Below, in pieces: positions 16,162 through 64,000 of a stretch of 64,000 nucleotides of DNA. Position 1 is the stretch's first letter. Every line of letters begins with the position of its first letter. Made by a program: the position numbers and the translations under genes. Source of the DNA: Methanosarcina vacuolata Z-761 (lineage in GTDB: Archaea; Halobacteriota; Methanosarcinia; Methanosarcinales; Methanosarcinaceae). The notes below the pieces were generated by a model that saw only the letters and a list, made by a program, of their open reading frames with translations, did not search any database and had not been told where the DNA came from. The stretch lies in contig NZ_CP009520.1 in the NCBI RefSeq assembly GCF_000969905.1, positions 1,736,001 through 1,800,000 on the forward strand. The letters are read 5' to 3'.

Positions 16162-17346
16162 TTAAATTGCTTCAAGGGCCTGTTTGAGGTCTTCAATTAT
16201 GTCTTCGTAATCTTCAATCCCTACCGAGAGCCTGACAAGCCCGTCAGTTATGCCCACACTCTTTCTTACTTCATGAGGGACACATGCATGAGTCATAGAT
16301 GCAGGGTGCTGGATAAGAGTATCCGTAGCTCCGAGGCTCACAGCAAGAGAACAGAGCTTTACATTGTCCATGAGCTTCCTCCCGGCTTCAATTCCGCCTT
16401 TTACCTCAAAAGAGAGCATCCCGCTGAATCCGCTCATTTGCTTGCGTGCAAGTTCATGCTGAGGATGACCTGGAAGCCCTGGATACCTGACCCACTCTAC
16501 CTCAGGTCGTGATTCAAGAAATTCCGCAACCTTCATTGCGTTTTCAGCGTGCCTTTCCATCCTGATATGCAGGGTTTTAAGTCCTCTTATGCAGAGCCAG
16601 GCTTCATGCGGCCCCATAATGCCTCCTGTATACCCAACAACCTCAGACATTCTATTAATAAAATCCTTATTTCCTGCAACGATTCCGCCAAGCAAATCTG
16701 CATGACCGCCTATATATTTTGTACAGCTACTCATAGAAAGGTCTGCACCAAGCTCAAGAGGCCTCTGGAAATAAGGTGTTGCAAAAGTGTTGTCCACAAC
16801 GCAGAGGGCCCCGTTTTCCCTGGCTATCCTGGCTATTTCAGGAATATCGCATACAGTAAGCGTAGGATTTGCAGGACTCTCAAGAAAGACCATTTTTGTC
16901 TCGGGCTTAAAGGCTCTCCTTACATTTTCGGTTTTAGAGGTATCGATGAAACTGACCTCTATTCCAAGTCCTGGCAAAACCTGAGAAAAGAGGCTGTATG
17001 TGCATCCGTATACTACATCCGTTGAAATAAGGTGGTCTCCTTGCTTCAGGGCAGTTAACGCAATTGCGGTGATCGCTGCCATTCCCGAGGCAAAGGTCTG
17101 CCCTGCTTCCCCACCTTCAAGCGCAGCAAATTTTTCAGTGAGAACAGCATGTGTGGGAGTGTTTGGAGGAATTCTGGCATATACATACCCGGATTCATCT
17201 CCTGCAAACCTTGCTGCTCCCTGCCTGGCATTCTCAAAAATGAAAGTCGAAGTCTGGAATATCGGAGTTGTATGCGCCCCAAAAACCGGATCCGGCTTTT
17301 CTGCGGCATGTACACATTTTGTTGCAAACTTCACTTCTCTTTCCAT
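16162..17346 (-). CDS. Methionine gamma-lyase-like Cys/Met metabolism PLP enzyme
   Basis: A 394-residue fold-type I PLP enzyme of the trans-sulfuration family. PLP lysine K210 is in SSCTKYIGGHAD, with Tyr54/Arg58-type contacts in SGYVYARIPPNTPT. Residues 112-117, VYGCTY, put Cys115 exactly where methionine gamma-lyase has its conserved active-site Cys (Cys116 in the Pseudomonas enzyme), which argues for methionine to methanethiol, ammonia and 2-oxobutyrate rather than cystathionine chemistry. Cystathionine gamma-lyase or synthase remains possible. Methanethiol is a methanogenic and sulfur intermediate in Methanosarcina. It stands alone; metY-metX is 5 kb away. Confidence 0.75.
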   Translation of the reverse strand: MEREVKFATKCVHAAEKPDPVFGAHTTPIFQTSTFIFENARQGAARFAGDESGYVYARIPPNTPTHAVLTEKFAALEGGEAGQTFASGMAAITAIALTALKQGDHLISTDVVYGCTYSLFSQVLPGLGIEVSFIDTSKTENVRRAFKPETKMVFLESPANPTLTVCDIPEIARIARENGALCVVDNTFATPYFQRPLELGADLSMSSCTKYIGGHADLLGGIVAGNKDFINRMSEVVGYTGGIMGPHEAWLCIRGLKTLHIRMERHAENAMKVAEFLESRPEVEWVRYPGLPGHPQHELARKQMSGFSGMLSFEVKGGIEAGRKLMDNVKLCSLAVSLGATDTLIQHPASMTHACVPHEVRKSVGITDGLVRLSVGIEDYEDIIEDLKQALEAI

Positions 17347-22526: not shown

Positions 22527-25453
<2,927 letters not shown>

Positions 25454-40670: not shown

Positions 40671-41915
40671 TTACAGAGGTTCCAGCATCTTTGTAGGTAC
40701 GAATTTATGCTCCAGGATACGGTTCTTAAGCATTGTACAGAGCCTTTCTGCCCGTGCCCTGTCTGACTGCCTCAGAGATATAGGGACAGTTCCTTCAGCC
40801 AGTTCTATAGACCCCAGTCTTGCAAGGAATACTCCTTCAGAACACTGGAGCGTACAGGTTCCGCAGTTGATGCAGAGATCTCTGTTGATAGCGCAATCAT
40901 TTGAAATCGCTTCTGTGGGACAGGTGCGCATTGCGGCACAGTCTGGATGGTGCAGACACCTATCTTTTTCGGCACGAATAACTTTATCAGTGCCTCCCCA
41001 TACATTCCCGTAATTCACTTTTGCATGTGCAGTGCGCCCGTTTACGTCTGCTACTGGTAGCGGGACATTCTGGTCCAGAATTTTTAATCCTGAAAGAATC
41101 TCTTCATCAAGGACAGGGATAGGGACTGCAAGTGAGGTAAGGCATTCAGGGCCGTGTGCTGTTTTCATCCCTCCCATCATGGTCGGGTTCATATCTTTCA
41201 TGTCTGCATATGCTGAGACGTTTGGCTTATCAGGACTGGCCCTGGTCCCTTTTCCCATGATATAACCTGGTGCACCATTTAAGAGAACTCTTGTACCCAC
41301 ACCTATTGACCTGTGAGAAGGATCGTTCTGCAGAGGATTTATTTCACCGCATCCTGATACCGTTGTTTCCGTAAATGGACCTGTCAGGCCTGTCACAGAG
41401 AAGATAGTGTTAATCGTTGGAGAAGCGGGATTTATCAGTGCATTGTAATTTTTAAACGCGAGCCTTGTGGTAATGATCCTGGCAAATTCGATCTCATCAA
41501 GCGTAACCTGGTTTTCATATTGCTTTCCGTGTGCTTCTACCGTCACGTCAATAGTTTTCCCTTTTACAAGGTCCCGGAAAAGATGACCTCCGCCATATTG
41601 TTCATTTGCATGTGCTGTCCCGTTTATCACAAGGTCTACAACCCCGAGCCTTTCGTTCGGACAGGGGCCCGGTTGAGCAGGCACACCGTTTAGCCAGATT
41701 GCATCCGCTCTCTCGAAACTGTTTTTTTCAGCTACCGGCACCATCATAACTGCCATAGTTCCTGACATCACGCCAAAAGTTCCTGTTGTTACTACATCCA
41801 CGTCGTCAACAGTCACCTCTTTTCCATCACGAACCATCAACTTGAGCTCGGCAGCTGTAAGGATTATGGCTTCTTTGTTTGCAATCTTCTGATTTATTTC
41901 TTCAATCGTTTTCAT
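40671..41915 (-). CDS. DUF39 protein with ferredoxin domain (methanogenesis marker 16 type)
   Basis: The 414-residue protein has the DUF39 domain of archaeal homocysteine-biosynthesis proteins (VDVVTTGTFGVMSGTMA, VPAQPGPCPNERLG, SGCGEINPLQNDP, RVLLNGAPGYIMGKGTR) followed by a C-terminal two-cluster ferredoxin part (HPDCAAMRTCPTEAI, LCINCGTCTLQCSEGVF). This combination is the methanogen-restricted marker-16 metalloprotein family. The related DUF39 enzyme makes homocysteine from aspartate semialdehyde and a sulfur donor; marker 16 itself is uncharacterised. Ribosome binding site GGAAG precedes the ATG. It is last in an operon with a small Fe-S protein, a GTPase and an ABC ATPase. Confidence 0.85.
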   Translation of the reverse strand: MKTIEEINQKIANKEAIILTAAELKLMVRDGKEVTVDDVDVVTTGTFGVMSGTMAVMMVPVAEKNSFERADAIWLNGVPAQPGPCPNERLGVVDLVINGTAHANEQYGGGHLFRDLVKGKTIDVTVEAHGKQYENQVTLDEIEFARIITTRLAFKNYNALINPASPTINTIFSVTGLTGPFTETTVSGCGEINPLQNDPSHRSIGVGTRVLLNGAPGYIMGKGTRASPDKPNVSAYADMKDMNPTMMGGMKTAHGPECLTSLAVPIPVLDEEILSGLKILDQNVPLPVADVNGRTAHAKVNYGNVWGGTDKVIRAEKDRCLHHPDCAAMRTCPTEAISNDCAINRDLCINCGTCTLQCSEGVFLARLGSIELAEGTVPISLRQSDRARAERLCTMLKNRILEHKFVPTKMLEPL

Positions 41916-47466: not shown

Positions 47467-47796
47467 ATGAAGGTCGCTATCGTTTCAACTGATGGTAAGG
47501 TTATCAACCAGCATTTTGGAAAAGCATCCAGGTTTTTTATATTTGAGATTGATGATTGTGGTAAAATACAATTCTTAGAAGTTAGAGAGACTATGCCTTT
47601 ATGTGGCTCAGCGGATGAAGGGCATGCCGATGATGTTTTAAGCAGAACAATTTCTTTGATATCTGACTGTGAAGCTTTGCTTTGCTCCAGAATTGGCAGC
47701 AGGCCGCGAGAAGAATTAAGGAAAAAAGGAATTAAACCAGTTGAAACTCCCTACTTTATTGACGAAGCTTTAAAAAGTATATCTGAAGCTGAATAA
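47467..47796 (+). CDS. NifX/NifB C-domain-like iron-molybdenum cluster protein
   Basis: The 109-residue protein is a single dinitrogenase iron-molybdenum cofactor biosynthesis domain (PF02579): KVAIVSTDGKVINQHFGKASRFFIFEI at the start with the conserved HFG, and CEALLCSRIGSRPREELRKKGIKPVETPYFIDEAL at the end. Relatives bind Fe-S cofactor precursors. Ribosome binding site GATGGGGATG precedes ATG. No nif operon is adjacent, but a nitrogenase-like pair lies 7 kb downstream, so a cluster-carrier role for that system is an open possibility. Confidence 0.85.
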   Translation: MKVAIVSTDGKVINQHFGKASRFFIFEIDDCGKIQFLEVRETMPLCGSADEGHADDVLSRTISLISDCEALLCSRIGSRPREELRKKGIKPVETPYFIDEALKSISEAE

Positions 47797-48249
47797 TCAG
47801 GGTTAAACAGTTCCAAGTCACCTTATTTCCGAATTATGATTCACTAATGTTTAGCAAATATAATGACTTTCCATATCTGAAAAATTACAGATGCCAAAAC
47901 ATTATACACTTATTTTTGAGCCACAGTAATTCCTGTTTAATCTCTTGAACCTGCAAGAGTAATCTGGAGAATAATCTGGAAAATAATCTGGAAGATAATC
48001 TGGAAAATAATCTGGAAAATAATCTGGAAAATAATCTGGAAAATAATCTGAAAGATAATCTGAAAAATAATCTGAAAAATAATCTGGAGAATAATCTGGA
48101 GAATAATCTGGAGAATAATCTGGAGAATAATCTGGAGAATAATCTGGAGAATGATCTCTATTCTTGTTGAAATCGGAGAGGTTGCACAACTGCTTTTTTC
48201 TATCAAACAGGCAATTTACATCCTCAATCTGCGGATATTGATAATTTGC
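47797..48249. other. Intergenic region dominated by a minisatellite
   Basis: No gene is called. Open frames across the repeat (reading NLEN on one strand and PDYS/IILQ on the other) are products of the 12-bp period, not evidence for a protein. Confidence 0.7.
47961..48156. repeat. 12-bp tandem repeat, about 16 units
   Basis: AATCTGGAGAAT and variants with GAAAAT, GAAGAT, AAAAAT repeat continuously. Variation is concentrated at three positions. The last unit diverges into GATCTCTATTC. Confidence 0.95.
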
Positions 48250-48324
48250 AGGCACTTTTTGCCTTAAAAACGAAATTTAAATATTAATAATGAATAGGAT
48301 GTTTTGTCAGTTCACGAATGTGAT
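48250..48324 (+). promoter_or_regulatory. Orphan tRNA-Cys-type promoter module
   Basis: Dyad AGGCACTTTTTGCCT (48250-48264), TATA box TTTAAATATT (48276-48285), then a decayed palindrome TTCACGAATGTGAT (48311-48324) at exactly the spacing of the tRNA-Cys promoters. No tRNA follows; the next gene starts at 48427. Either it drives that gene or it is left from a lost tRNA-Cys copy. Confidence 0.65.
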
Positions 48325-50001: not shown

Positions 50002-51384
50002 ATGGATATAAGAACACAGAAAACATTTGAGGCACTTTTTGCCCTTGAAGATATTAGGGAGATCCTTAGACAAAGGCTTCCAAATACCAAAAGCCCAGAA
50101 GAAGAAAACACCATTAAAGAAAGTGTAAATAAGGTCAGAAAATTTCTGGATGATATCGAAAATGATGCCGGAACCCCGGAAGTAAGAAAAATAGCTGATA
50201 ATATTGATATTCGGTCCAGAGAAGAAACAAACATCAATATACAGCCAATCCAGGCAGCAGGAAGGCTTACACCCGAAGCACGAAAAGCTCTCATAGCATA
50301 TGGCGACGGCTATTCCACCTGTGATGCCTGCCGCAAACCTTTCAGGCTTGATAAAATAAGCAGTCCACCTATTGCTCCCTTTCATGAACAACTTGCAAGC
50401 TTCGTTAACATGGATGTGGCTCGAGTAGTGCCAGGTGCAAGGAGAGGGTTCCAGGCAGTGACATCGTCTCTGGTCAACAAAGGTGATTCCGTAATAGTCT
50501 CGGCTCTTGCTCATTATACAGAATTCCTAGCAGTAGAAGGAGCAGGAGGAATAGTTCGAGAAGTTCCCTTAAACGAACACAATATTGTGACTGCAGATGC
50601 TACTGCTGAGAAAATTGAAGCGGTTAAGCAGGAAACAGGTAAATTACCTGTACTGGTAATGATCGACCACTTTGATTACCAGTATGCAAACGAGCACGAT
50701 GTAAAAGGCATTGCAAAAGTTGCCCACCAGTATGACATTCCTTTCCTGTACAACGGGGCATATACTGTTGGCGTCAGGCCGGTTGATGGAAAAGATATCG
50801 GCGCGGATTTTGTTGTAGGTTCAGGCCACAAAAGCATGGCATCCCCTGCACCTTCTGGAGTACTGGCAACAACTGAAGAATGGGCTCCCAGGATATTCCG
50901 CACAACTCAGATGACTGGCGATCTAACCAAACGCAAATTTGGAGTAAAAGAAGTCGAGATGCTTGGCTGCACACTGATGGGTTCAACTTTGCTAGGCATG
51001 ATGGCTTCATTCCCTACAGTTAAGGAGAGAGTAAAGAATTGGGAAGACGAATTGAAAAAATCGAATTATCTGATCGATGGCTTGCTCGCTATTGAAGGCA
51101 GTAAAGTCGTCTCAGAGTATCCACGCAAACATACCCTTTCCAAAGTTGACACCATCAATAGCTTCGATCTTGTAGCGCAGAAAAATAAACGCAGAGGTTT
51201 CTTCCTTTCAGACGAACTTTCAAAAAAGGGTATTGTCGGAGAATTTGCAGGAGCCACAAGAGTCTGGAAACTTAATACATACGGGCTTTCGTGGGAGAAA
51301 GTTCGCTATGTCGTAGACACATTCCAGGAAATCGCTGAAAAATATGACCTTCAGGTAAACAAGGAGAAGAATTCCAATGACTAA
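50002..51384 (+). CDS. pscS: Sep-tRNA:Cys-tRNA synthase (SepCysS)
   Basis: SepCysS converts O-phosphoseryl-tRNA-Cys to cysteinyl-tRNA-Cys with PLP and a sulfur donor; it is the second step of the tRNA-dependent cysteine pathway of methanogens. The protein has the PLP lysine K277 in [14 protein letters not shown], the catalytic cysteines Cys107 and Cys110 ([10 protein letters not shown]) and Cys323 (EMLGCTLMG), all three known to be needed. At 460 residues it has an N-terminal helical extension of about 80 residues compared with shorter archaeal homologues. AGGGG precedes the ATG. It overlaps metY by 8 bases and follows its substrate tRNA gene. SepRS is not in the window. Confidence 0.95.
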
Positions 51385-52669
51385 TAACTATAAATTAGGA
51401 ACACTTGCCCTTCACGCCGGACAGAACCCGGATCCAGCTACAGGAGCACTTGTAGTACCTATATATCAGACTACCTCGTATGCATTCAAGGATGCAGATC
51501 AGGCAGCCAATCGTTTTGGGCTCAAAGAGCTTGGCAACATCTACACCCGTATAATGAACCCCACTACTGATGTGTTCGAAAAGCGCATCGCTGCCATTGA
51601 AGGTGGGACTGGAGCCCTTGGAGTTGCATCAGGTTCAGCAGCAATAACCTATGCTCTGTTAACTATTACTAGAGTAGGGGATGAAATAGTATCCGGAAAC
51701 AATCTTTACGGCGGAACCTACGAACTTTTTAGATACACTTTCCCCAAACTGGGAAGAAAAGTAATATTTGTAGATTCAACTGATGTAGAGGCGTACCGAA
51801 AAGCCATTAATGAGAAAACCAGGGCTGTTTATATTGAGTCACTGGGTAACCCGAAGCTTGATGTCCCAGATTTTGAGGCAATTGCTGACATTGCTCATAA
51901 AGCCGGGATTCCGGTTGTCGTAGACAACACAAGTGCTGTAGGGCTTGTCCGGCCTATTGAACATGGAGTTGATATCGTTGTGCATTCAGCAACCAAATAC
52001 ATTGGCGGGCATGGAAACTCAATTGCCGGTTCTATAGTCGATTCCGGGAAGTTCCCATGGAATAACGGTAAGTTCCCGGAATTCACAGATCCTGATCCAG
52101 AGTATCACGGCCTGAAATACTGGGACACATTTTCAGACTTCCCTGGGCTTGGGAACGTAGCATTTGTCTACAAAACAAGGCTGCAATTCCTTCGAGATAC
52201 AGGTGCCGCGATTTCACCTTTTAATTCATTCCTGCTGCTTCAGGGACTTGAAACCCTGCATCTGAGGATACAGAGGCACTCTGAAAATGCACTTAAGGTG
52301 GCAGAATACCTCTCAAACCATCCGAAGGTCTCGTGGATAAATTATCCAGGTTTGCCGGATCACCCAAGCCATGAACTTGCATCCAGATATCTCAAAGGTG
52401 GTTATGGTGGATTAATAGGATTCGGTGTAAAGGGTGGCGTGGAAGAAGGAAAGAAGTTTATTAACTCTGTGAAGCTGCTTTCACACGTTGCAAATATAGG
52501 AGATTCTAAAAGTCTTGTTATCCACCCAGCAAGTACCACACACCAGCAATTAACCCCGGCAGAGCAGGAAGCAAATGGGGTTAAGCCAGATTACATACGC
52601 CTTTCCATAGGTACTGAGGATATAGAAGATATAATCTTAGATCTGGAACAGGCTCTTGAGAAAGTGTAA
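51377..52669 (+). CDS. metY: O-acetylhomoserine sulfhydrylase, second copy
   Basis: A 430-residue MetY with [33 protein letters not shown] lysine in [15 protein letters not shown] and [14 protein letters not shown]. It overlaps the end of pscS, so it is translated from the same transcript as SepCysS and, presumably, tRNA-Cys. Compared with the copy at 24089 it lacks the charged N-terminal extension and carries a [14 protein letters not shown] insertion near residue 245. Placement in the cysteine operon suggests a partly different role, for example homocysteine synthesis linked to cysteine supply, whereas the other copy is coupled to metX. Confidence 0.93.
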
Positions 52670-54462: not shown

Positions 54463-55812
54463 TCAAAGAGGCCCTGCGTATGTACTCATAACGTCTTCCA
54501 CTAAAGTGAGCCCTCCACTGAACCCTGCGTAATTGTGTTCAAGTATCACGCGGTTATATGAAGGGAATGAAACCGTCAAATGTAGGGCATTAAACTCCGG
54601 ACCGGATATAGGAGTTTCAAGAGAACTTGCCAGCAGGAACAGGAAATTTCTGTCTTTTAAATTTTCCCGAATCCTGTATGCATCCACTTCATATATTATT
54701 TCAGGCCAGGCAGGGGTTTCAAGGTCGGTTGTCAATTCCTCGTTTATCAGTTTACGGGCTTCTTCAGGTGGATTATCTGTTATCTGAACAATATCAGGTA
54801 GATAACCCATCTCGTTTGCAAGGTATTTTGTAATGCTTACAGCCGAATTACTGTCAGCGACAACCGCAAAATAAGGATGCGGCCTGGTGATCAGGAGTAT
54901 ATCGCCAACAAATTCTGCAAATCTGTAGGCTCGCTTTTCCTCTCTGGCAATCAGGTCTTCAATGACATCGGCTGAAACATCTAACCTTTCTCCTATGACC
55001 CTCAGGAATTCCGAGGTTTGTTTTGGTCCTATTGGTACCCCTGGGAAGGAGATATAAGGAGTATCGAACTTTTCTTCGAGTTTCTCTGCCGTTTTATGCC
55101 CTATCCAGCTTGAGAGGACAATATTATATTCAGCAGCCGGAATTTTTTTCAGGTTCTCAAGTGCTTCAAATTCTCCTACAATCAGATTTGCCTTCAAGCC
55201 TATTTTTTCAAGCAGGGTTTTTATCTCCCTTGCTTCGCCCTTCCAGAATATGTGCTGTGAAGGCACTATACCGAAAACGTTTACCAATCCTTTTTCTTTC
55301 GGAGCCTTTTCAAGGAGCTGGTCGATCACAGCGTCGAAAAAGTACTCGTAGCCGTCGTATGATGTCCCTGCAAAGCCTGAAGTATTTACATGTATGATTG
55401 GAACCTCAGGATTCTTTTCTTTATATCTTCTGATAACGGCTCCCACATCATCTCCTATAAGTGAAGGGACACAGCCAGAGATGACTGCAAATACTTCTCC
55501 ATTTACAAGTTCTACCGTTGATTCAATAAGCGCTTCAAGTTTTTTCTCGCCGCCGAAAATTACATGTTCCTCAACTAAAGAGGAACACGGGGTGCTTGTT
55601 CCACCGTAAGGGCCTCCAGCGTTCTGGCCACCACCGTAAAATTGACCAAAAAGCTGCCCTATTCCACATCCTGCCCCGGAATGGAGTATGGGAACAACTC
55701 CAAATATCCCTACTGCAGTTGAATAAGCTCCTGCAAGTGCGCAGGAGTAACGTGGTGCTTCAATAGCACCTGATATAACATTATTTGTCTCTAAAGGTTC
55801 ACTTATTCCCAT
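54463..55812 (-). CDS. Nitrogenase-like component 1, beta-type subunit
   Basis: The 449-residue protein belongs to the nitrogenase component 1 superfamily. Cys24, Cys49 (SGAGCGIGQ) and Cys114 (VISGCVPSLIGDDV) match the three P-cluster ligands of NifK. A long Gly-rich loop (QFYGGGQNAGGPYGGTSTP) follows Cys49 and is unlike NifK. It starts 12 bases after the alpha-type gene, so they are one operon. Similarity to NifK is distant; candidates are a methylthio-alkane reductase MarK-like subunit or an uncharacterised nitrogenase-like reductase. The reductase (NifH-like) is not in the window. Confidence 0.75.
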   Translation of the reverse strand: MGISEPLETNNVISGAIEAPRYSCALAGAYSTAVGIFGVVPILHSGAGCGIGQLFGQFYGGGQNAGGPYGGTSTPCSSLVEEHVIFGGEKKLEALIESTVELVNGEVFAVISGCVPSLIGDDVGAVIRRYKEKNPEVPIIHVNTSGFAGTSYDGYEYFFDAVIDQLLEKAPKEKGLVNVFGIVPSQHIFWKGEAREIKTLLEKIGLKANLIVGEFEALENLKKIPAAEYNIVLSSWIGHKTAEKLEEKFDTPYISFPGVPIGPKQTSEFLRVIGERLDVSADVIEDLIAREEKRAYRFAEFVGDILLITRPHPYFAVVADSNSAVSITKYLANEMGYLPDIVQITDNPPEEARKLINEELTTDLETPAWPEIIYEVDAYRIRENLKDRNFLFLLASSLETPISGPEFNALHLTVSFPSYNRVILEHNYAGFSGGLTLVEDVMSTYAGPL

Positions 55813-55824
55813 AATTACACCTAT

Positions 55825-57369
55825 TTACTCCTCTGCTTTAAGATAATACAGTGAATTTGGCTGTTTGTACCACCAGTCTTTATATGTACTCAGCGTCTTT
55901 TCCTTCATAGTCCGCTGATATGAATGGCTTTTTAGTGACTGCAAAAGGAAGTTTCCAAATGCAATCGCTCCCGTATAGCCGCTCTGGGTACTCCAGGGAT
56001 GTGCATCGGACCTCAAGGCATGCACCCTTGTTACACCCTTGTCGCGCTTGAATGCCCCTCCCTGGAACGGGCAGGTCATTGCGATATCGGGATTTCTATG
56101 GTTTGTTATATGTGTCTGTTCTGCGGCCTGGAAGGTATTTACCAGAATGTCAAAGTCCCCCATCTGGGCGAGCAATTTTTCAAGGTCCTTAAGGATGAGG
56201 TTGTCAAAGTCCTGGCACATTGCAGCTGAGGATTTAAGTCCAATTTCATCAAAGTACGGGACCTGAGCCAGAAGTCTTCCCTGCCCAAGTGCACCCAGCA
56301 CTTCTACTTTCTCTCCATTACCTTTGAAATTTTCAAATTCCTGCCTGATCGCCTTGAGTTTTGGAAGCCATTTTTCGTGTTCTTCTTTGATCAGGGCTTC
56401 TATTTCCCTTTCTTTTCCAGTGTGCCTCCCGATTTCCCTCAGCCACTCATCGGTGTGAGCAACTCCCATTGGTGAGGGATAGAGGAAATAAGGAACTCCA
56501 TATTCTTGCTTAAGTCCACGTGCAAGATAATCAGTGTAAGTCGGGCACAGGGGTGCAGTAACTGCAGCTTCGGAAAGTTGTTCAAACTGCTCCACAGAGG
56601 CGAATTCAGGGATGAAGTTAACTCTAAGACCGACTTTTCCCAGCAGGCGCTTTATTTCCAGTCTGTCCTGCCAGGTGTAGGAGAGCATACTGGCTACATT
56701 TATCAGATCTTTCTGTTTCTTTTCCGGTTTTTTGACGAGGTATTTTAAGACTGCATGCCAGAAGGCATCATAACCTGTCTGGACAAGTTTTGATCGTGAG
56801 CCTTCACAGTGAATAGGGACTATTGTTGCTTTTATTTCGGGCTGGACCTGTGAGACAACCCCTTCTATGTCCTCTCCGATTATTCCTGAAGTACAGGACG
56901 TAAGTATAAAGATCGCTTTAGGATTGTACCGTCTCTCGGCTTCCTTTATCGCTTCCCTGAGCTTTTCACCGGCACCGTAGACCACATCTCTTTCGCCGAG
57001 ATTTGTTGTCATCCAGTGGAGGTCGTAATTTGCAGGACGGCCAAGTTCAACAGGCACGTGTCTGTAGAGTTCACGGTAGCCGAGTGCTGCAGACGAGCAG
57101 CCGACAGGTGCATGATATATAGCTACAGCGTCACGGATTGTTCCGATCCTTACTGAAAGATAGAAGTTCAGAACACAACCACTTGACTGCTGAAAATTCC
57201 GTTCTCTTTGCCTCAGGCAGCCTGAACGGGCTTCTTTTGCAAGATCGCTTGCTTTTCCATACCAGACGTTAATACCGTTTGCCCTCTGTTCCCTGTTGGG
57301 ACATGTAGCCCGTGATAGGTCGATTCTATCCTCGATAAGTTCATTTTCAGTAAGTTCTGTTCCTGACAT
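55825..57369 (-). CDS. Nitrogenase-like component 1, alpha-type subunit
   Basis: The 514-residue protein keeps the NifD layout: P-cluster ligands Cys65 (SSGCVLN), Cys91 (APVGCSSA) and Cys159 (LTSCTSGIIGED), a cofactor Cys275 in APLCPTYTDYLARGLKQEYG, and His457 in AHPWSTQSGYTGAIAF where NifD has the cofactor His. Thus a FeMo-co-like or NifB-co-like cluster could be held. NifD residues around the N2 site (for example the RAP/HSW context) differ, so N2 reduction is not implied. Sulfur genes nearby (two MetY, methanethiol-forming lyase) make a methylthio-alkane reductase-like role attractive but unproven. Confidence 0.8.
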   Translation of the reverse strand: MSGTELTENELIEDRIDLSRATCPNREQRANGINVWYGKASDLAKEARSGCLRQRERNFQQSSGCVLNFYLSVRIGTIRDAVAIYHAPVGCSSAALGYRELYRHVPVELGRPANYDLHWMTTNLGERDVVYGAGEKLREAIKEAERRYNPKAIFILTSCTSGIIGEDIEGVVSQVQPEIKATIVPIHCEGSRSKLVQTGYDAFWHAVLKYLVKKPEKKQKDLINVASMLSYTWQDRLEIKRLLGKVGLRVNFIPEFASVEQFEQLSEAAVTAPLCPTYTDYLARGLKQEYGVPYFLYPSPMGVAHTDEWLREIGRHTGKEREIEALIKEEHEKWLPKLKAIRQEFENFKGNGEKVEVLGALGQGRLLAQVPYFDEIGLKSSAAMCQDFDNLILKDLEKLLAQMGDFDILVNTFQAAEQTHITNHRNPDIAMTCPFQGGAFKRDKGVTRVHALRSDAHPWSTQSGYTGAIAFGNFLLQSLKSHSYQRTMKEKTLSTYKDWWYKQPNSLYYLKAEE

Positions 57370-57976
57370 TAATCATTACTCCGTAAGAGACCTGTTTTTC
57401 GTAGTTAGTTTGTCTCCAGTATGTTTTGCTCTTGACATCACCTCTTCCATTCGCATTAATGAATATATAAATCGGGAAATCAGCAAAAATGTAAGCTAGT
57501 TTCTCATTATCCTAATTTTTGCGGCAAAAAAGAAAGTTCAGGAATAATTTAGTATTTGAACCAGATCCAGATGAATAAAATTTATCTGGACAATATCCGG
57601 TTTCAGTATCCTGAATGATGATAGGATTTGTTCCGATTCTGGATTAACTTGTTTATCCAGACCCGAGCCGGATAGGAATTTTTAAGTTTTTCCTCACTAC
57701 GCCGCACGGCCTAGAGGCCTGCCTGCCGTTTAAGAAAATAGTGACCTGAAAACCGATATCGCAAGTAGAAAGATGAGATTCTGAAGGAAAACGTCTCGAT
57801 TTGAAGGTTAGAGGAGTTGTTTTACTTAACTCCAGAAACCGATTTTTAATTCACAGCTGATATAGAACGCCTCCGACAGCTAGCCTGGCGGCTCTGTAAA
57901 AAAAGAAGAAAGAGATAGCAATAGAGATAAGAAAAAAGAGACTTGAACCAATAAAATAAAGATCATGAAGATATTC
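57370..57976. other. Intergenic region with a duplicated structured segment
   Basis: No gene seen. Part of it (about 57735-57935) is repeated at 58655-58850. Near 57605-57675 an inverted pair CCGG-rich segment (GACCCGAGCCGGAT and ATCCGGTTTCAG-like) occurs upstream of the nitrogenase-like genes. Confidence 0.5.
57735..57935. repeat. About 200-bp direct repeat, copy 1
   Basis: The stretch from AATAGTGACCTGAAAACCGA through TATAGAACGCCTCCGACAGC and CTAGCCTGGCGGCTCTGTAA to a purine-rich end matches 58655-58850. A conserved hairpin CCGxCAG-CTAGC-CTGxCGG lies inside. Confidence 0.75.
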
Positions 57977-58435
57977 TTAAGAATCTCTTTTAGGAAAAAG
58001 GAGAGTTTTTGTTGATGTAACATTGATACCGTTAATGTAGTTTAAGTTCAAGATTTGTTCTTTAGAAAAGCCTGAAGCGTTAAATTCAACTTGCCCTTTG
58101 ACAGAAATTGTAGAATTGGGACTTATGGTTTTGTTACCAATTATCTCATGATTCTCAGTTAGTACTCTTGCTAAAATATCTTTTGTAAAAATCGGTTCAA
58201 CAGAATCCAGATGAATTTCCCCATTTTTCTCGTTATATAAGACAAAATCGTAATTAAAGGCCTGTATGCTTGTATTATTTGCACTATCAATAGGACCTAA
58301 AACTTCTGTGGCTGACACTATTTTTAACCCGTCTTCTGCTTGGGAAGAGTTGCTGTTTTCCTTAATCTCAACAAACAATATAGCTAAAACTAAAAGAAAT
58401 ATTAAGATATTGCGTATTAAGTTTTTATTCACCAT
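57977..58435 (-). CDS. Membrane-anchored exported protein, unknown
   Basis: The 152-residue protein has one hydrophobic segment (about 8-23) after a basic N-terminus, then an extracellular-type domain with N-x-S/T sequons (NNTS, NKTIS, NSTIS, NASGF, NVTST). The beta-strand-like pattern (FNYDFVLYNEKNGEIHLDSV, STISVKGQVEFNASG) suggests a small Ig-like or FxLYD-type domain. No family is certain. It is bracketed by two direct copies of a 200-bp repeat, so it may have been duplicated or moved as a cassette. Confidence 0.6.
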   Translation of the reverse strand: MVNKNLIRNILIFLLVLAILFVEIKENSNSSQAEDGLKIVSATEVLGPIDSANNTSIQAFNYDFVLYNEKNGEIHLDSVEPIFTKDILARVLTENHEIIGNKTISPNSTISVKGQVEFNASGFSKEQILNLNYINGINVTSTKTLLFPKRDS

Positions 58436-58654
58436 ATCCTTCCTGAAACCAAACTAAAATGGTATTTCTGATAGTAGATTGCTGTTTACTAATGTCTGTT
58501 CAAAAAATGAATCAATTATTCAATAGCTAACTCATTGATCATTGCACAAATTTAAAAGTTCATGTTTGTAAATATAGTTTAAGTTTTTCAAATAAAATAT
58601 AAAAAGCAGTAGTATATATAAAAAATTGAATATAAAGAGTCCCTGATACAGAAT

Positions 58655-58850
58655 AGACAGTGAAATAACCTGAAAACAGAATTGCAGGTAACAAGATGAG
58701 ATAAAACACTTCTTGACTTGAGAAATTGTTTTATTTAACCCGAAAACCTACTTTAATTCATGGCTAATATAGAACGTCTCCGCCAGCTAGCCTGGCAGCC
58801 CTGTGAAAAAGGAGAAAAAGAAGAAAGAAGCAGTTAGTAATAGAGAGGAG
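58655..58850. repeat. About 200-bp direct repeat, copy 2
   Basis: It matches 57735-57935. In this copy the hairpin is GCCAG-CTAGC-CTGGC with a perfect 5-bp stem; several arm changes relative to copy 1 keep partial pairing. Confidence 0.75.
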
Positions 58851-59289
58851 AAAAAGTACAGTTCTTTGTCACTTTTACTTTTTGTTTTGTCTACTTTTTT
58901 TGAAAATGCCGCTCTCCTTTGTCGAGCGGGACAAATCACAGTATAGTGGGATGATTAAAAGTAATTTCGAGATCGAAATACAAGGATTAAAAGACAGATA
59001 TACTAGTATCTAAGCAATTTAGTTATGGATTATTATAATTAAGAACGGGACTAAAGATGAAGTATTGTCTATGTATTGAAGTATCATAACTAAGTTGCCA
59101 TGACACTAGGTTAGTTAATTAAAATTTCACAGTTGTATACTTTTAAAGGAATTTTGCTAAAATTATTTTTTACGATACAACTACCTTTTTTAAGACTGTA
59201 ATTTTCAGTTTAGAAAAACTTACGGAATATACTTTCTAAAATCCTGAGGATCTATTTTTCAGGATACCTATAATCCATAAGTTTAATTT

Positions 59290-59369
59290 GAGAGAGGGGA
59301 TTCGAACTCATGGACACCTTGGGAAGTGTATCTTAAGTCCATTGCCTTTGACTTGGCTGGACAACCCGT
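59290..59369 (-). pseudogene. Decayed tRNA-Leu (TAA-like)
   Basis: On the minus strand, TTGTCCAGCCAAGTCAAAGG (D-arm region), GGACTTAAGA (anticodon-loop region of a UAA tRNA-Leu), a long variable arm and GAGTTCGAATCCCC (T arm) are recognisable in the right order. The acceptor ends (ACGGG...CTCTC) do not pair, and the anticodon stem has mismatches, so it cannot be functional. Confidence 0.65.
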
Positions 59370-59722
59370 ATGGAAGGACACTTTAGTCTGCTCTTTGAAA
59401 ACTAAGCACATCGCAAGACAAACTGTAATTCGAACAATTTCCTCTAAAAACGCGCCTGGAAAAATGTTAAAAACATATTAAGACGCTTCACAAGAAACAA
59501 TAAAAGAAACAAAAATAGAAAAACTGTCAGGTTAAGGACTATAGGAACCTAAATCTTTTTATTACCCCATCAAACGTGAACGGTACATAAATCTCGGACA
59601 ATTTTCGTACATTAGGAAATAGCCAAAGAAAAAAATGAGAAATATTGCAACTGCAACTTATCTAGGACCTTCTAGTTTTTATACCCCGCCCTAAAAAGAA
59701 AGGAGCCTTTCGCCTTAGAGTT

Positions 59723-60742
59723 TCAAGCTGAAAGATTATACAAATAGATATCTCTGTTTTCCCGGTGTTCTGGGTCAGTTCGTGAGTCTATATATACGAT
59801 TTTATCTTCGTAAATTGCAGGCTCTCTTGCATAAGTGCTGTCAGTAATACGAGTTGTCTCGTTAGTTGAGATATTGTACATGTAAATGTCACTCGACCAT
59901 TTTTCTCCTCCTCTGTATTTTTTTTCCAACACTATTCTATCACCATATACATCTGGATTGGTCGAATTGCCATCAAAAGTGACTTGGCGTGTTTCATGCT
60001 TAGCAATATCTCGCATATAGACATCCATTACATTCATTAATTCATTTTTATATTCTATCCACACGACAATGTTTCCGTAAATTTTACCGCCACCTGCTCT
60101 ACCGGTTCTGCTGATGTCACTTATTCTCTTTGTAGGTATGTCGTATATGGAAATATTTGCACTATATTCGCCTGGATTTACCCGATTCATCCGTCCATAC
60201 ACAATTTTATTTCCGTAAGTAGAAAAACCCCACCGAGGATGCGTACCAAATAGATCATGTGTATATGGAATTAGTTGAACTTCTTCACTTGTGCTAAGGT
60301 TGTATAAATATAAACTGTTATACTCAGCGTTTTGATAATATGCAGGCTGACCATCAACATATTTTGACCTTACGTACACAACATTATCACCATAGATCGC
60401 TGGTGTACTCGTATTATCGATTTTAGTTTCTTTACCAGTGGAAATGTTATACACGATCACGCTTCCACCATCCCACCATGTAATTTTATCTCCCTGAATA
60501 GATGGGCTATTTTGTGCATATCCCAATCCGGTTATGTTTCCAGTAGTCAAGTCATACATGCCAACCATGTTACCAAAAGTATCAGACCATGTGACAATGT
60601 TGCCATAGATTGATGGACTCGATGTTAGCCTCGAACTTATAATCATAGTCTCTTTGCCAGCATTTGCTATTGATGTAAAGCTTATAAGAAAAATCAAAGC
60701 AAGCCCTATATGTATAATTTTATTCCCCACATTAATCCCCAT
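59723..60742 (-). CDS. Secreted beta-propeller surface protein
   Basis: A 339-residue protein with a signal peptide (cleavage after SIANA, about 28) and repeated blades of the form IYGNIVTWSD, IQGDKITWWD, IYGDNVVYVRS, TYGNKIVYGR, IYGNIVVWIE, VYGDRIVLEKK and IYEDKIVYID, i.e. seven TolB/YncE-like propeller repeats. It carries no membrane anchor. It is paralogous to the protein at 63050, and the 3' flanks of the two genes are also alike, so this is a segmental duplication. The IS1-type element and a DUF3795 gene lie between them. Confidence 0.8.
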   Translation of the reverse strand: MGINVGNKIIHIGLALIFLISFTSIANAGKETMIISSRLTSSPSIYGNIVTWSDTFGNMVGMYDLTTGNITGLGYAQNSPSIQGDKITWWDGGSVIVYNISTGKETKIDNTSTPAIYGDNVVYVRSKYVDGQPAYYQNAEYNSLYLYNLSTSEEVQLIPYTHDLFGTHPRWGFSTYGNKIVYGRMNRVNPGEYSANISIYDIPTKRISDISRTGRAGGGKIYGNIVVWIEYKNELMNVMDVYMRDIAKHETRQVTFDGNSTNPDVYGDRIVLEKKYRGGEKWSSDIYMYNISTNETTRITDSTYAREPAIYEDKIVYIDSRTDPEHRENRDIYLYNLSA

Positions 60743-60912
60743 AAAGGATATAATACTGGAAAACTACATCAACATTGCTGCTCATTAGCAATATGGGGGA
60801 AAAGAAAGAAGAATGAGGGTTATTTATTGTTTTAAAACAAAATTATAGTCTCCAAGCATGCTATCCCTATATCTTTTATGACACTTTTTCAGATTTAATT
60901 TTGATCTGAAGT

Positions 60913-61194
60913 TTACCTTAGTCCTTTTAAGACGGAAACCCTACCTTGAATTGATTTTTGATGTTCCTCTTCACTCAAGGAAGGATCCTTTAAAGAAATC
61001 CAAAGTTCGCAGGGGATTTGCGAACAACCGCCGCAATTTTGATAATCTTTTTCCTTAACGCATTTATAAACAGGGCAGATATCAGCACCGATATACTGGG
61101 CCCAATAAACCTTGCCTTCAACTGCATCACAACCGACACAGTCGTTATTCAGATGAGTACATCCTTCACAATTTGCTCCACATACACAGATCAT
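60913..61194 (-). CDS. DUF3795 Cys-rich protein
   Basis: The 93-residue protein has the DUF3795 pattern of paired cysteines: MICVCGANCEGCTHLNNDCVGCDA, then CPVYKCVKEKDYQNCGGCSQIPCELW. Twelve cysteines suggest a zinc or Fe-S binding fold; function is unknown. Start 61194 follows GGAAGGT at 7 nt; the longer frame lacks a ribosome binding site. It stands between the two propeller genes. Confidence 0.8.
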   Translation of the reverse strand: MICVCGANCEGCTHLNNDCVGCDAVEGKVYWAQYIGADICPVYKCVKEKDYQNCGGCSQIPCELWISLKDPSLSEEEHQKSIQGRVSVLKGLR

Positions 61195-61757
61195 CTTTAT
61201 ACCTTCCGTAAACAATTTCAGTAGTTATAAGCAAATTTTGTTGTTTAAGGTGAGTAACTGTTCTAAATTATTCAAAACGTTGAGTAGATTTATCAGTCAT
61301 TTGAATCTCAATACTATTGCATTCACCTTTACTTACAAAAGCTATCTCAAATTCATTATTCTTTGCCAAGTAAGCTGAAAGTATTCTTATATTTCAAAAG
61401 TTACTTTCTTTTTCATACTCAGATCTTCAAAATCTTACTAAGAATGAGATAGGAAGTCAATTCTTACCGTCAAAATTATGCAAAACCCTTTTTGTCAGCT
61501 GTGAAACCGCAGCCAATGAAATAACAAAATCGTAAAAGAATACTATGGATCGTGAGGAAAAGCTTAGGTTAAGAGTAAATAAATGCTTATTTATTTCTCT
61601 TCTATTCTTGTTTTTTCTGCACTCTAAATTTCTTATTTTCTCCAAATACAACTCATCTACATCCGGCCTTGTCCTTTAAATTGACGATTGCTCCACGTTT
61701 ATCAAAAGAGATATGTCTAATATGTAAAGTACCACATCACCAATTTAATTACAACTC
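61195..61757. other. Intergenic region without a recognised gene
   Basis: Only short frames occur (for example a 64-codon frame at 61457-61651 without ribosome binding site). Nothing supportable. Confidence 0.5.
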
Positions 61758-62942
61758 GCAAGATTTTTGATGGTCAATCTTTATTTGATTGATGTTTTAA
61801 AACACCTGAATGTCAGCAATTCCTTTAAGGTCCATATTGAGTCCACAATTCCTGCCTCTCTTGCAGGTGTATTTTTACATTCTACCCCTCTTTCATCTTT
61901 GTACTTTAATCCTCCATGACCTCTACAGAAGTTAAAGTGGGTACAATATAACCTCATTTGATGCTCTAACCATTCTTTGACTTTTGAAAACCCTATTGTT
62001 TTTCTTGAAACTCTGTTGTTATCCTGCCTAAAAGTCAGGTTTTGTCTTTCAAGTAAAGTTGTTGAGATTTCACTTTGTTCAATATTGTTTCCAAAGATAA
62101 TCTTCTTCTTGACTTTCTTAAGTAACCCATTTATTCTTATTTTGACTACCTGTGCATACTTCAAATCATCACGGGGAAAAATTTCTGGTTTCTTTGGTCT
62201 TCCTCTTTTCCCAGTTCTTGGATACTCAATTAAAACTCCAAAATGTTTCAAAAGGGCTTCTCTATAAAAGTTCAATCCATCTGTGACAAAAAGAGGTATT
62301 TTATCCGAAAGATGTTTTTTAACTGACTCGACTAACTTATCCGCAACATACTGTTTTCTTGGTCCTATTACAAAGTCCAGTATTAGCCTACAACCTGGTG
62401 CAAAAGCTACCCACATCCATGGCCCATTATCTTCATAATCCTTCATTCTAGGAACTTTTTTTTTGAATTATTACCCATAGTTCATCCATTTCTATCTTGG
62501 GTACATCCACGTCTTTCATCATACTGTCATTTACTTTATCGCATTGTTCAGCTGCACGAGCTAACCATCGTTTTACACTGGCAGATTCTACCTCTAAAAC
62601 ATCGGCAATGGCTTCAATGCTCATACCTTTCATAGACATTTTTAAAGCTAAATCAATAGTTTTCTCAGCTTTCCGAAGATTATGATAAAAAGTGTCTGTA
62701 TGGTCGTTGAATACTTTACCGCAATGACGGCAAAGATATCTTCTTGTTTTTTCTCCACGACTTATATATGTTCCATTTCCAGTAATATTGCCTTGGTTAG
62801 TAAGACCATAGAGCTTGCAGTTTTTGTTAGGACAGGCAACGTCAATGAATCTTGGTTTTGGACCTCTTTTTCCCATAACATAAACATATGATGTTAAAAG
62901 ATATAATACCAATCAGATACAAAGTGACCATCAGATTTTTGC
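61758..62942 (-). mobile_element. IS1-type insertion sequence
   Basis: About 1.2 kb with imperfect ends: left GCAAGATTTTTGATGGTCA (61758-61776) and right, read inward, GCAAAAATCTGATGGTCA (62925-62942). It contains an IS1 family transposase in two pieces. No clear target duplication was found. It separates two duplicated propeller genes. Confidence 0.75.
61781..62876 (-). pseudogene. IS1-type transposase, frameshifted in an A run
   Basis: The N-terminal part (from MGKRGPKPRF, 62876) has the InsA-like zinc finger CPNKNCKLYG...YLCRHCGK and an HTH (SIEAIADVLEVESASVKRWL), then DELWVIIQKK. The C-terminal part (DNGPWMWVAFAPG, LFVTDGLNFYREALLKHFG, TTLLERQNLTFRQDNNRVSRKT, CRGHGGLKYKDER) is the InsB-like DDE domain. 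The two frames meet at nine A on the coding strand (plus-strand 62456-62464). Removing one A gives a single continuous frame, so this copy looks like a one-base insertion mutant of a single-ORF archaeal IS1 transposase. Confidence 0.8.
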
Positions 62943-63049
62943 CGGGAATTAAAAGAAAAAAATGAGAAATATTTGCAACTACAACTTAGCTGAGAACCTT
63001 CTAGTTTTATATTCCGTCCTAAAAAGAAAAGAGCTTTCGCCTTAGAATT

Positions 63050-64000
63050 TCAAGCTGAAAGATTATACAAATAGATATCTCTGTATTCCTGGGATTCTGG
63101 ATCATCGCGTGTATCTACATATATAATTTTGTCGTTATAAATTGCAGGATCACCAGCACAAGTGCTGTTTGTAATACGAGTTGTCTCATTGGTTGAGATA
63201 TTGTACATATAAATGTCACTTGAAAAGTTGTTTCCTATCCAGTATTCTCTTTCCCACACTATCCTATCACCATATATATCCGCACTGGTAGAATTGTTAT
63301 CGAAAGTGACTTGACGTGTTTCATGCTTGGCAATATCTCGCATGTAGATATCCCTTGACTCATTTTTTTGTTCTACCCACACAACAATATTTCCGTAAAT
63401 TTCACCTCCTGCTGCTGTACCAGTTCTACTGATGTCACTTACTCTTTTTGTGGGTATGTCGTATATGGAAATGTTTGAACTCCATTCACCTGAATTTACC
63501 TGATTTGCCCGTCCCCATACAATCTTATTCCCGTAAATAGAAGGATAAAATCGAGCATGTTCATACGGAGTTAGCTGAGTTTCTTCATTGGTGCTGAGAT
63601 TGTATAAGTACAAACTGTTAGATTCATCATTTTGATGAGAGGCAGGCTGACCGTCCTCATATTTTGACCTTACGTACACAACATTATCACCATAGATCGA
63701 GGGCGTATTCGCACCAACAATTTTAATCTCTTTGCCAGTGGAAATGTTGTACACAATTATATTTTTATCATAATCCCACCATGTAATTTTATCTCCCTGG
63801 ATAACTGGGCTATTTCCTGCATGTCCTAGTCTGGTTATGTTTCCGGTAGTCAGGTTATACATCCACGCTGTGTCAGTAGTAGTCTCAGCCCATGTAACAA
63901 TGTTGCCGTAGATTGATAAATCCAATGTTAGCCTCGAAGCTACGACCCTAGTCTCTTTGCCAGCATTTGCTATTGATGTAAAACTTATGAGGAAAATCAA
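63050..64000 (-). CDS. Secreted beta-propeller surface protein (5' end outside window)
   Basis: Paralogue of 59723-60742 along the whole length: signal peptide end FLISFTSIANAGKET, then blades IYGNIVTWAE, IQGDKITWWD, IYGDNVVYVRS, IYGNKIVWGR, IYGNIVVWVE, IYGDRIVWERE and IYNDKIIYVD, ending DIYLYNLSA like its twin. The start codon is beyond the window edge. Sequence divergence is moderate, so the duplication is not very recent, but the conserved 3' flank (62955-63049) shows that it included non-coding DNA. Confidence 0.8.
   Translation of the reverse strand: MIFLISFTSIANAGKETRVVASRLTLDLSIYGNIVTWAETTTDTAWMYNLTTGNITRLGHAGNSPVIQGDKITWWDYDKNIIVYNISTGKEIKIVGANTPSIYGDNVVYVRSKYEDGQPASHQNDESNSLYLYNLSTNEETQLTPYEHARFYPSIYGNKIVWGRANQVNSGEWSSNISIYDIPTKRVSDISRTGTAAGGEIYGNIVVWVEQKNESRDIYMRDIAKHETRQVTFDNNSTSADIYGDRIVWEREYWIGNNFSSDIYMYNISTNETTRITNSTCAGDPAIYNDKIIYVDTRDDPESQEYRDIYLYNLSA

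Follow-up and report, generated by a model that had tools for sequence, protein, structure and literature searches.

Methylthio-alkane reductase (Mar) has been described as the sole nitrogenase-like enzyme known to contain both large clusters (PMC12552129). Group IV D/K clades with Cys275 and three P-cluster cysteines per subunit, Archaea included, have also been described (Dos Santos 2012, PMC3464626), and an association of group IV D/K genes with O-acetylhomoserine sulfhydrylase was already noted in 2012 (PMC3464626). Another group IV system, Nfa, is said to hold all ligands for N2 reduction (PMC9147875, PMC11257099). For the methanogen clade considered here, we found no functional paper in the open-licence literature. 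In this report, we describe a member of that clade, a D/K gene pair in a 64-kb window of Methanosarcina vacuolata Z-761 (the whole stretch of DNA that was analysed, G000:C2:1736001-1800000), and compare its relatives, active site, reductase partner and gene neighbourhood with those of the known systems.

The D/K pair and its relatives

The pair consists of neighbouring ORFs on the minus strand, D (NifD/MarD-like, 514 aa; 55825-57369; PF00148, E 1.3e-69) and K (NifK/MarK-like, 449 aa; 54463-55812; PF00148, E 2.8e-70), both of them nitrogenase component 1 proteins (E ~1e-70). Their best solved matches are the Mar subunits of Rhodospirillum rubrum: MarD of 9FMG for D, at 263 bits with the next family at 111, and MarK for K, at 275 bits with the next family at 94. 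An AF2 model of D (pLDDT 81) also has 9FMG chain A as its best fold match, with about 31% identity in the fold alignment. Purifying selection on the genes is strong, dN/dS being 0.03-0.05 for D, 0.03-0.08 for K and 0.02-0.08 for D, K and the reductase gene H together. Methanosarcina sp. genomes hold D relatives at 97-98% identity, and D is decayed or broken in three related genomes (G076, G094 and G086).

A careful maximum-likelihood tree of 67 D-type proteins placed the window D inside a methanogen clade (25/25, support 100/100), which is sister (93/83) to a 24-sequence clade that contains R. rubrum MarD and carries the Arg-His pair of Mar; the protein, for which the first-pass annotation had entertained membership of the Mar family, thus falls outside the Mar clade and in a sister clade of its own. 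One contig (L045), 93% identical but with a Planctomycetota label, was kept out of the tree; it is most likely a Methanosarcina contig that was mis-binned. Two sequences from termite-gut bacterial MAGs nest within the methanogen clade, and two further sequences branch at its base: a D from Candidatus Methanoperedens (L056) and D1, carried on a plasmid of Ca. Chlorohelix allophototropha, the latter placed by a second, quick tree. A second D/K type, 33-37% identical to the window D, occurs in some Methanosarcina and Methanoperedens (L041, L042, L056:10963-12432 and L095); it branches outside both the methanogen and the Mar clades, and some of its members have a histidine in the column of Mar His429.

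The D type of the window was found in 11 of 111 genomes of the window genome's family, in 9 of 344 genomes sampled from its phylum and in 27 of 138 genomes of the Methanobrevibacter filiformis family. Some genomes contain two or three D/K pairs (G160, G408 and G103); a region of G160 (C1:2064000-2081000, L097-L098) packs three pairs of the clade into 16 kb with one H and one SsuABC-like transporter. A plasmid search matched Treponema besides Ca. Chlorohelix, and a search of viral contigs returned no match.

The window genome also encodes a nif set with its own NifEN-type pair, a second nitrogenase set and CfbCD, and its NifB gene (C2:1132069) is unlinked to D/K. An assignment to Cfb, the F430 biosynthesis system with a single D-type subunit and no K, was rejected, as D and K are adjacent here and CfbCD lies separately in the genome. 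A TGA flagged within the CfbC match proved to be the stop codon of CfbC itself.

Conservation and replacement of active-site residues

The comparison covered the alignment columns that the paper on the Mar structure singles out (PMC12552129). The six P-cluster cysteines (D Cys65/91/159 and K Cys24/49/114) and the cofactor cysteine D Cys275 are kept throughout the clade. A sequence check confirmed that all of these residues, and His457 of D, had been located correctly at first pass, and the cysteine part of the full ligand set then claimed holds across the clade. The histidine part does not: position 457 varies freely among relatives (H/R/D/A/E/L/N/S), so His457 was discarded as a cofactor ligand, and the invariant C-terminal histidine is His450. 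This residue opens an invariant H-x-x-R-x-D motif, present even in Chlorohelix D1, which lies near the position of NifD His442 but in a longer loop; in the AF2 model, pLDDT is below 50 over 434-454, the stretch that holds His450. The Gly-rich loop of K, at first considered unusual, has a comparable counterpart in MarK.

The lining of the site differs from that of Mar. The Loop I hallmark Arg428-His429 is replaced in the window D by Cys433-Pro434, within a conserved CPF motif in which Pro434 is clade-invariant; Mar His194/Trp195/Phe199 become Leu195/Val196/Tyr200, with Tyr200 invariant; and Mar Gln74 and His375 become an invariant Arg74 and Asp387, respectively. Relative to NifD, Val73 and Arg99 match Val70 and Arg96, and Val196 and Tyr200 stand in place of Gln191 and His195. 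In a 38-sequence residue count the rows were picked by His450 and Pro434, and the independent evidence for both columns is the tree-defined clade. Besides Cys275, His450 most likely holds the cofactor; Cys433, which takes the Loop I place of Mar Arg428, is the less likely candidate ligand because Methanoperedens has an alanine there.

A MarH-like reductase gene beyond the window edge

The first-pass annotation had reported no reductase nearby and had called for a nifH-like partner to be sought elsewhere in the genome. A PF00142 search of the whole genome revealed a NifH-family match at C2:1800434-1801222, past the window end at 1800000, within an ORF for a MarH-like protein of 304 aa (H; G000:C2:1800422-1801336, plus strand, start 64422 in window numbering). 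The start of H lies 422 bases outside the window, at a distance of 7.05 kb from the start of D, and the reductase seemed to be absent because the window edge falls between D and H. Among solved proteins H matches MarH of 9FMG best (404 bits vs 294 for the best nitrogenase NifH), and it carries a P-loop and two cluster cysteines, Cys96 and Cys132.

In most relatives H adjoins D/K, and in other methanogens the three genes stand side by side. In G103, H and D are divergent with only 284 bp between them; the D-H spacer in the window (57370-64000, no strand assigned), which holds a small unknown ORF, two propeller-like genes and a split transposase, is therefore an insertion and lies outside the system. 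Gaps of 2 to 10 kb between H and D, with unrelated genes inside, occur in G040, G088, G078 and the window genome. The two propeller-like genes encode paralogous secreted proteins (59723-60742 and 63050-64000, the latter running on in L024 to 2046), and the split IS1-like transposase (61781-62912) lies between them. In G040, a member of the window genome's family, an hgcAB-like pair lies between the MarH-like gene and D (contig C6; L064:6872-8301), with the motifs NVWCAAGK in the corrinoid protein and CMECGAC in the ferredoxin; hgcAB pairs are typical of mercury-methylating organisms.

Encoded beside the MarH-like gene is a conserved protein of only about 95 aa, which has the motif YRxxIDSxGxGHIRIxRR and no Pfam family (L024:3784-4227, and also in L046, L061, L062, L064, L066, L099, L100 and L101). 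It occurs in Methanosarcinales and Methanomicrobiales-type genomes and in 0/20 of the control regions described below.

Sulfur-related genes in the window and near relatives of the pair

The window contains a methionine gamma-lyase-like gene (16162-17346) and two MetY genes, at 24089-25447 and 51377-52669, as had been recognised at first pass. The latter, on the plus strand (TIGR01326, 655 bits, cut-off 495), encodes an O-acetylhomoserine sulfhydrylase that may act as acceptor of released sulfur. A NifX-like small protein with a Nitro_FeMo-Co domain (47467-47796, plus strand) is only loosely associated, 6.7 kb away; its homologues are linked to HDK in L048, L054, L056, L060 and Chlorohelix. 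A low-complexity tandem repeat at 47902-48255 (SPDY/FPDY-type if translated) is probably no gene. Window positions 40671-41915 encode methanogenesis marker 16 protein (TIGR03287, 511 bits), identified as the CoM synthase ComF (PMC12068725), and in L050 and L064 relatives of this gene are no more than 10 kb from HDK.

Among relatives, MetY is found near HDK in L046, L065, L068, L099 and Chlorohelix; linkage of MetY was seen in Methanosarcina, Methanospirillum and G195. Of the 43 stretches around HDK, 15 (about nine or ten lineages; kinship ignored) encode SsuA/TauA-family binding proteins, whose scores fall below the SsuA_fam cut-off, most of them together with an ATPase and a permease; no sulfonate/taurine-type transporter was found adjoining D/K in the window genome itself. 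Linkage of NifB-like genes to HDK occurs in Methanosphaera and other Methanobacteriaceae, in Methanoperedens and in the termite bacteria. Twenty 19-kb regions of the same genomes served as controls: none matched the transporter, MetY, NifX-like or small-protein profiles, and one matched the NifB-like profile. A Fisher test on hand-counted loci gave P ~0.001, with kinship between genomes ignored.

The plasmid of Ca. Chlorohelix, a phototroph of the Chloroflexota (L193, NZ_CP128401.1), yielded two D-type sets in the plasmid search. Its island runs from SsuA-like proteins, an ABC ATPase and a permease through a NifB-like gene, H, D1, K, NifX and MetY to a second set of NifB, NifX, H, D2 and K, in which D2 is of the Mar type, so that MetY sits between the methanogen-type and the Mar-type sets. 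The presence of the two types side by side suggests two substrates.

DISCUSSION

The gene set, the P-cluster ligands, Cys275, the invariance of His450, the clade and the neighbourhood are all read directly from the sequences. Taken with the analogy to Mar, they lead us to propose that the locus probably encodes an ATP-dependent reductase with a P-cluster and an [Fe8S9C] cluster, which would free sulfur from an imported organosulfur compound. D and K would form a nitrogenase-type heterotetramer working with the MarH-like ATPase, in which H, with a [4Fe-4S] cluster at Cys96 and Cys132, would give electrons, as ATP is hydrolysed, to a P-cluster with D Cys65/91/159 and K Cys24/49/114 as its ligands. 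Electrons would then pass to a NifB-made [Fe8S9C] cluster on D Cys275 and, most likely, His450, and the reduced cluster would cleave a C-S bond of an organosulfur compound, which the sulfonate/taurine-type ABC transporter present in many relatives may import. The released sulfur (sulfide, sulfite or methanethiol) would enter cysteine/methionine synthesis via MetY and related enzymes. For the cluster content, the ligation by His450, the C-S chemistry and the substrate class, this scheme draws on Mar (PMC12552129) and on the gene neighbourhood. The substrate is probably unlike that of Mar, given the different lining of the active site and the bacterium that keeps both types.

The first-pass annotation had gone further and proposed the reduction of methylthio compounds to methanethiol. 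A true methylthio-alkane reductase would convert methylthio-ethanol, ethyl methyl sulfide or dimethyl sulfide to methanethiol and a hydrocarbon, with MetY making methionine, and such a reaction would suit the facts that Mar is the closest characterised relative for all three subunits and that MetY and methionine gamma-lyase-like genes lie in the window. We nevertheless consider it unlikely, as the pair belongs to its own 100/100 clade, sister to Mar, the Mar residues Arg428-His429, His194, Trp195, Phe199, Gln74 and His375 are all replaced, Chlorohelix retains both types, and volatile sulfides would offer no obvious reason for a sulfonate/taurine-type transporter. What stands of the earlier interpretation is its wider frame: the closest structure (MarDK) and the NifB gene in the genome are consistent with a reductase that is related to Mar and has ligands for the P-cluster and the carbide cluster, and MetY together with the sulfonate/taurine-type transporters of relatives points to an organosulfur role. 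That role would itself be misleading if the enzyme catalysed another low-potential reduction and the nearby sulfur genes were there by chance of the island. The window genome would indeed have a sulfur island regardless of D/K, with genes for Sep-tRNA:Cys-tRNA synthase, the CoM synthase-like MMP16 and cysteine desulfurase, and the NMT1/SsuA transporter family is broad; the linkage of transporter, MetY and NifX, however, recurs in unrelated genomes, a Chloroflexota plasmid included, and the controls (0/20 with any of the three) make such a coincidence improbable.

Two further readings depart from organosulfur chemistry altogether. A group IV-A (Nfa-type) or back-up nitrogenase would reduce N2, as claimed for Endomicrobium proavitum, which fixes N2 via group IV genes without NifEN (PMC9147875, PMC11257099), and both the termite-gut organisms in the clade and the ligands of D (those for P-cluster and cofactor, a histidine near the NifD position, and the Val70 and Arg96 equivalents) are compatible with this activity. 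The absence of the nitrogenase residues Gln191 and His195, replaced by Val196 and the invariant Tyr200, speaks against N2 reduction, as do the sulfur-related neighbourhood and the two nitrogenase sets that the genome already has, and we regard it as very unlikely. The good scores of NifE-type models and the NifB/NifX linkage, which suits cofactor assembly, could instead indicate a NifEN-like scaffold, no catalyst itself, on which the carbide cluster of another enzyme is matured or stored; yet the pair has a dedicated MarH-like reductase, is often the sole D/K pair of its island and is closer to Mar than to NifE in fold and sequence, and with a NifEN-type pair already in the nif set of the genome a scaffold role seems highly improbable.

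If an organosulfur reductase is the correct reading, then the clade may represent, as we put forward only tentatively, a previously undescribed family of organosulfur (e.g. sulfonate) reductases that is widespread in methanogens, with P- and [Fe8S9C]-clusters and a cofactor histidine that sits in the C-terminal loop, as in nitrogenase, and not in Loop I, as in Mar, and hence a further catalytic type with a carbide cluster besides nitrogenase and Mar. Alike in its cysteines but different in its histidine position and lining, such a sister clade would reveal how the scaffold tunes the carbide cluster, and would also inform on where the ancestral ligand was placed. Many methanogens, gut Methanobacteriaceae included, would have a way of drawing sulfur from organic compounds that has so far gone unrecognised. 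Because Methanosarcina, a genus with genetic tools, carries the gene set, the idea is open to test.

Comparison with known systems

MarBHDK of R. rubrum (9FMG, 9D9U; PMC12552129) resembles the present locus in its H, D and K and a NifB relative, in the six P-cluster cysteines, in the equivalent of Cys270 as cofactor cysteine, in the Gly-rich loop of K and in the association with MetY; it differs in its separate clade and in having Arg428-His429 where the present D has Cys433-Pro434, with an invariant His450 instead, and a sulfonate/taurine-type transporter accompanies many relatives of the present pair. Similarly, IsrBHDK of Rhodobacter capsulatus combines HDK and a radical SAM partner with SsuABC/TauABC-type transporters and a proposed organosulfur role (PMC11423573). 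IsrD, however, retains only one of the three P-cluster cysteines (the Cys88 equivalent) and IsrB is not NifB-like (PMC11423573), whereas the present D has all three and the radical SAM protein linked to its HDK is NifB-like, and an assignment to Isr was rejected on the cysteine pattern. The Nfa system of E. proavitum (PMC9147875, PMC11257099), compared through its published descriptions alone, shares a group IV HDK without NifEN and an overlapping termite-gut distribution, and the present clade lacks the equivalents of NifD Gln191 and His195. The clades of Dos Santos 2012 (PMC3464626) were reported to lack His442, whereas the present clade has the invariant His450 near that position, in a longer loop. 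Finally, Mo-nitrogenase NifDK shares the fold, the P-cluster cysteines, Cys275 and the Val70 and Arg96 equivalents with the present pair, but scores far below Mar and has Gln191 and His195 where valine and tyrosine are found here.
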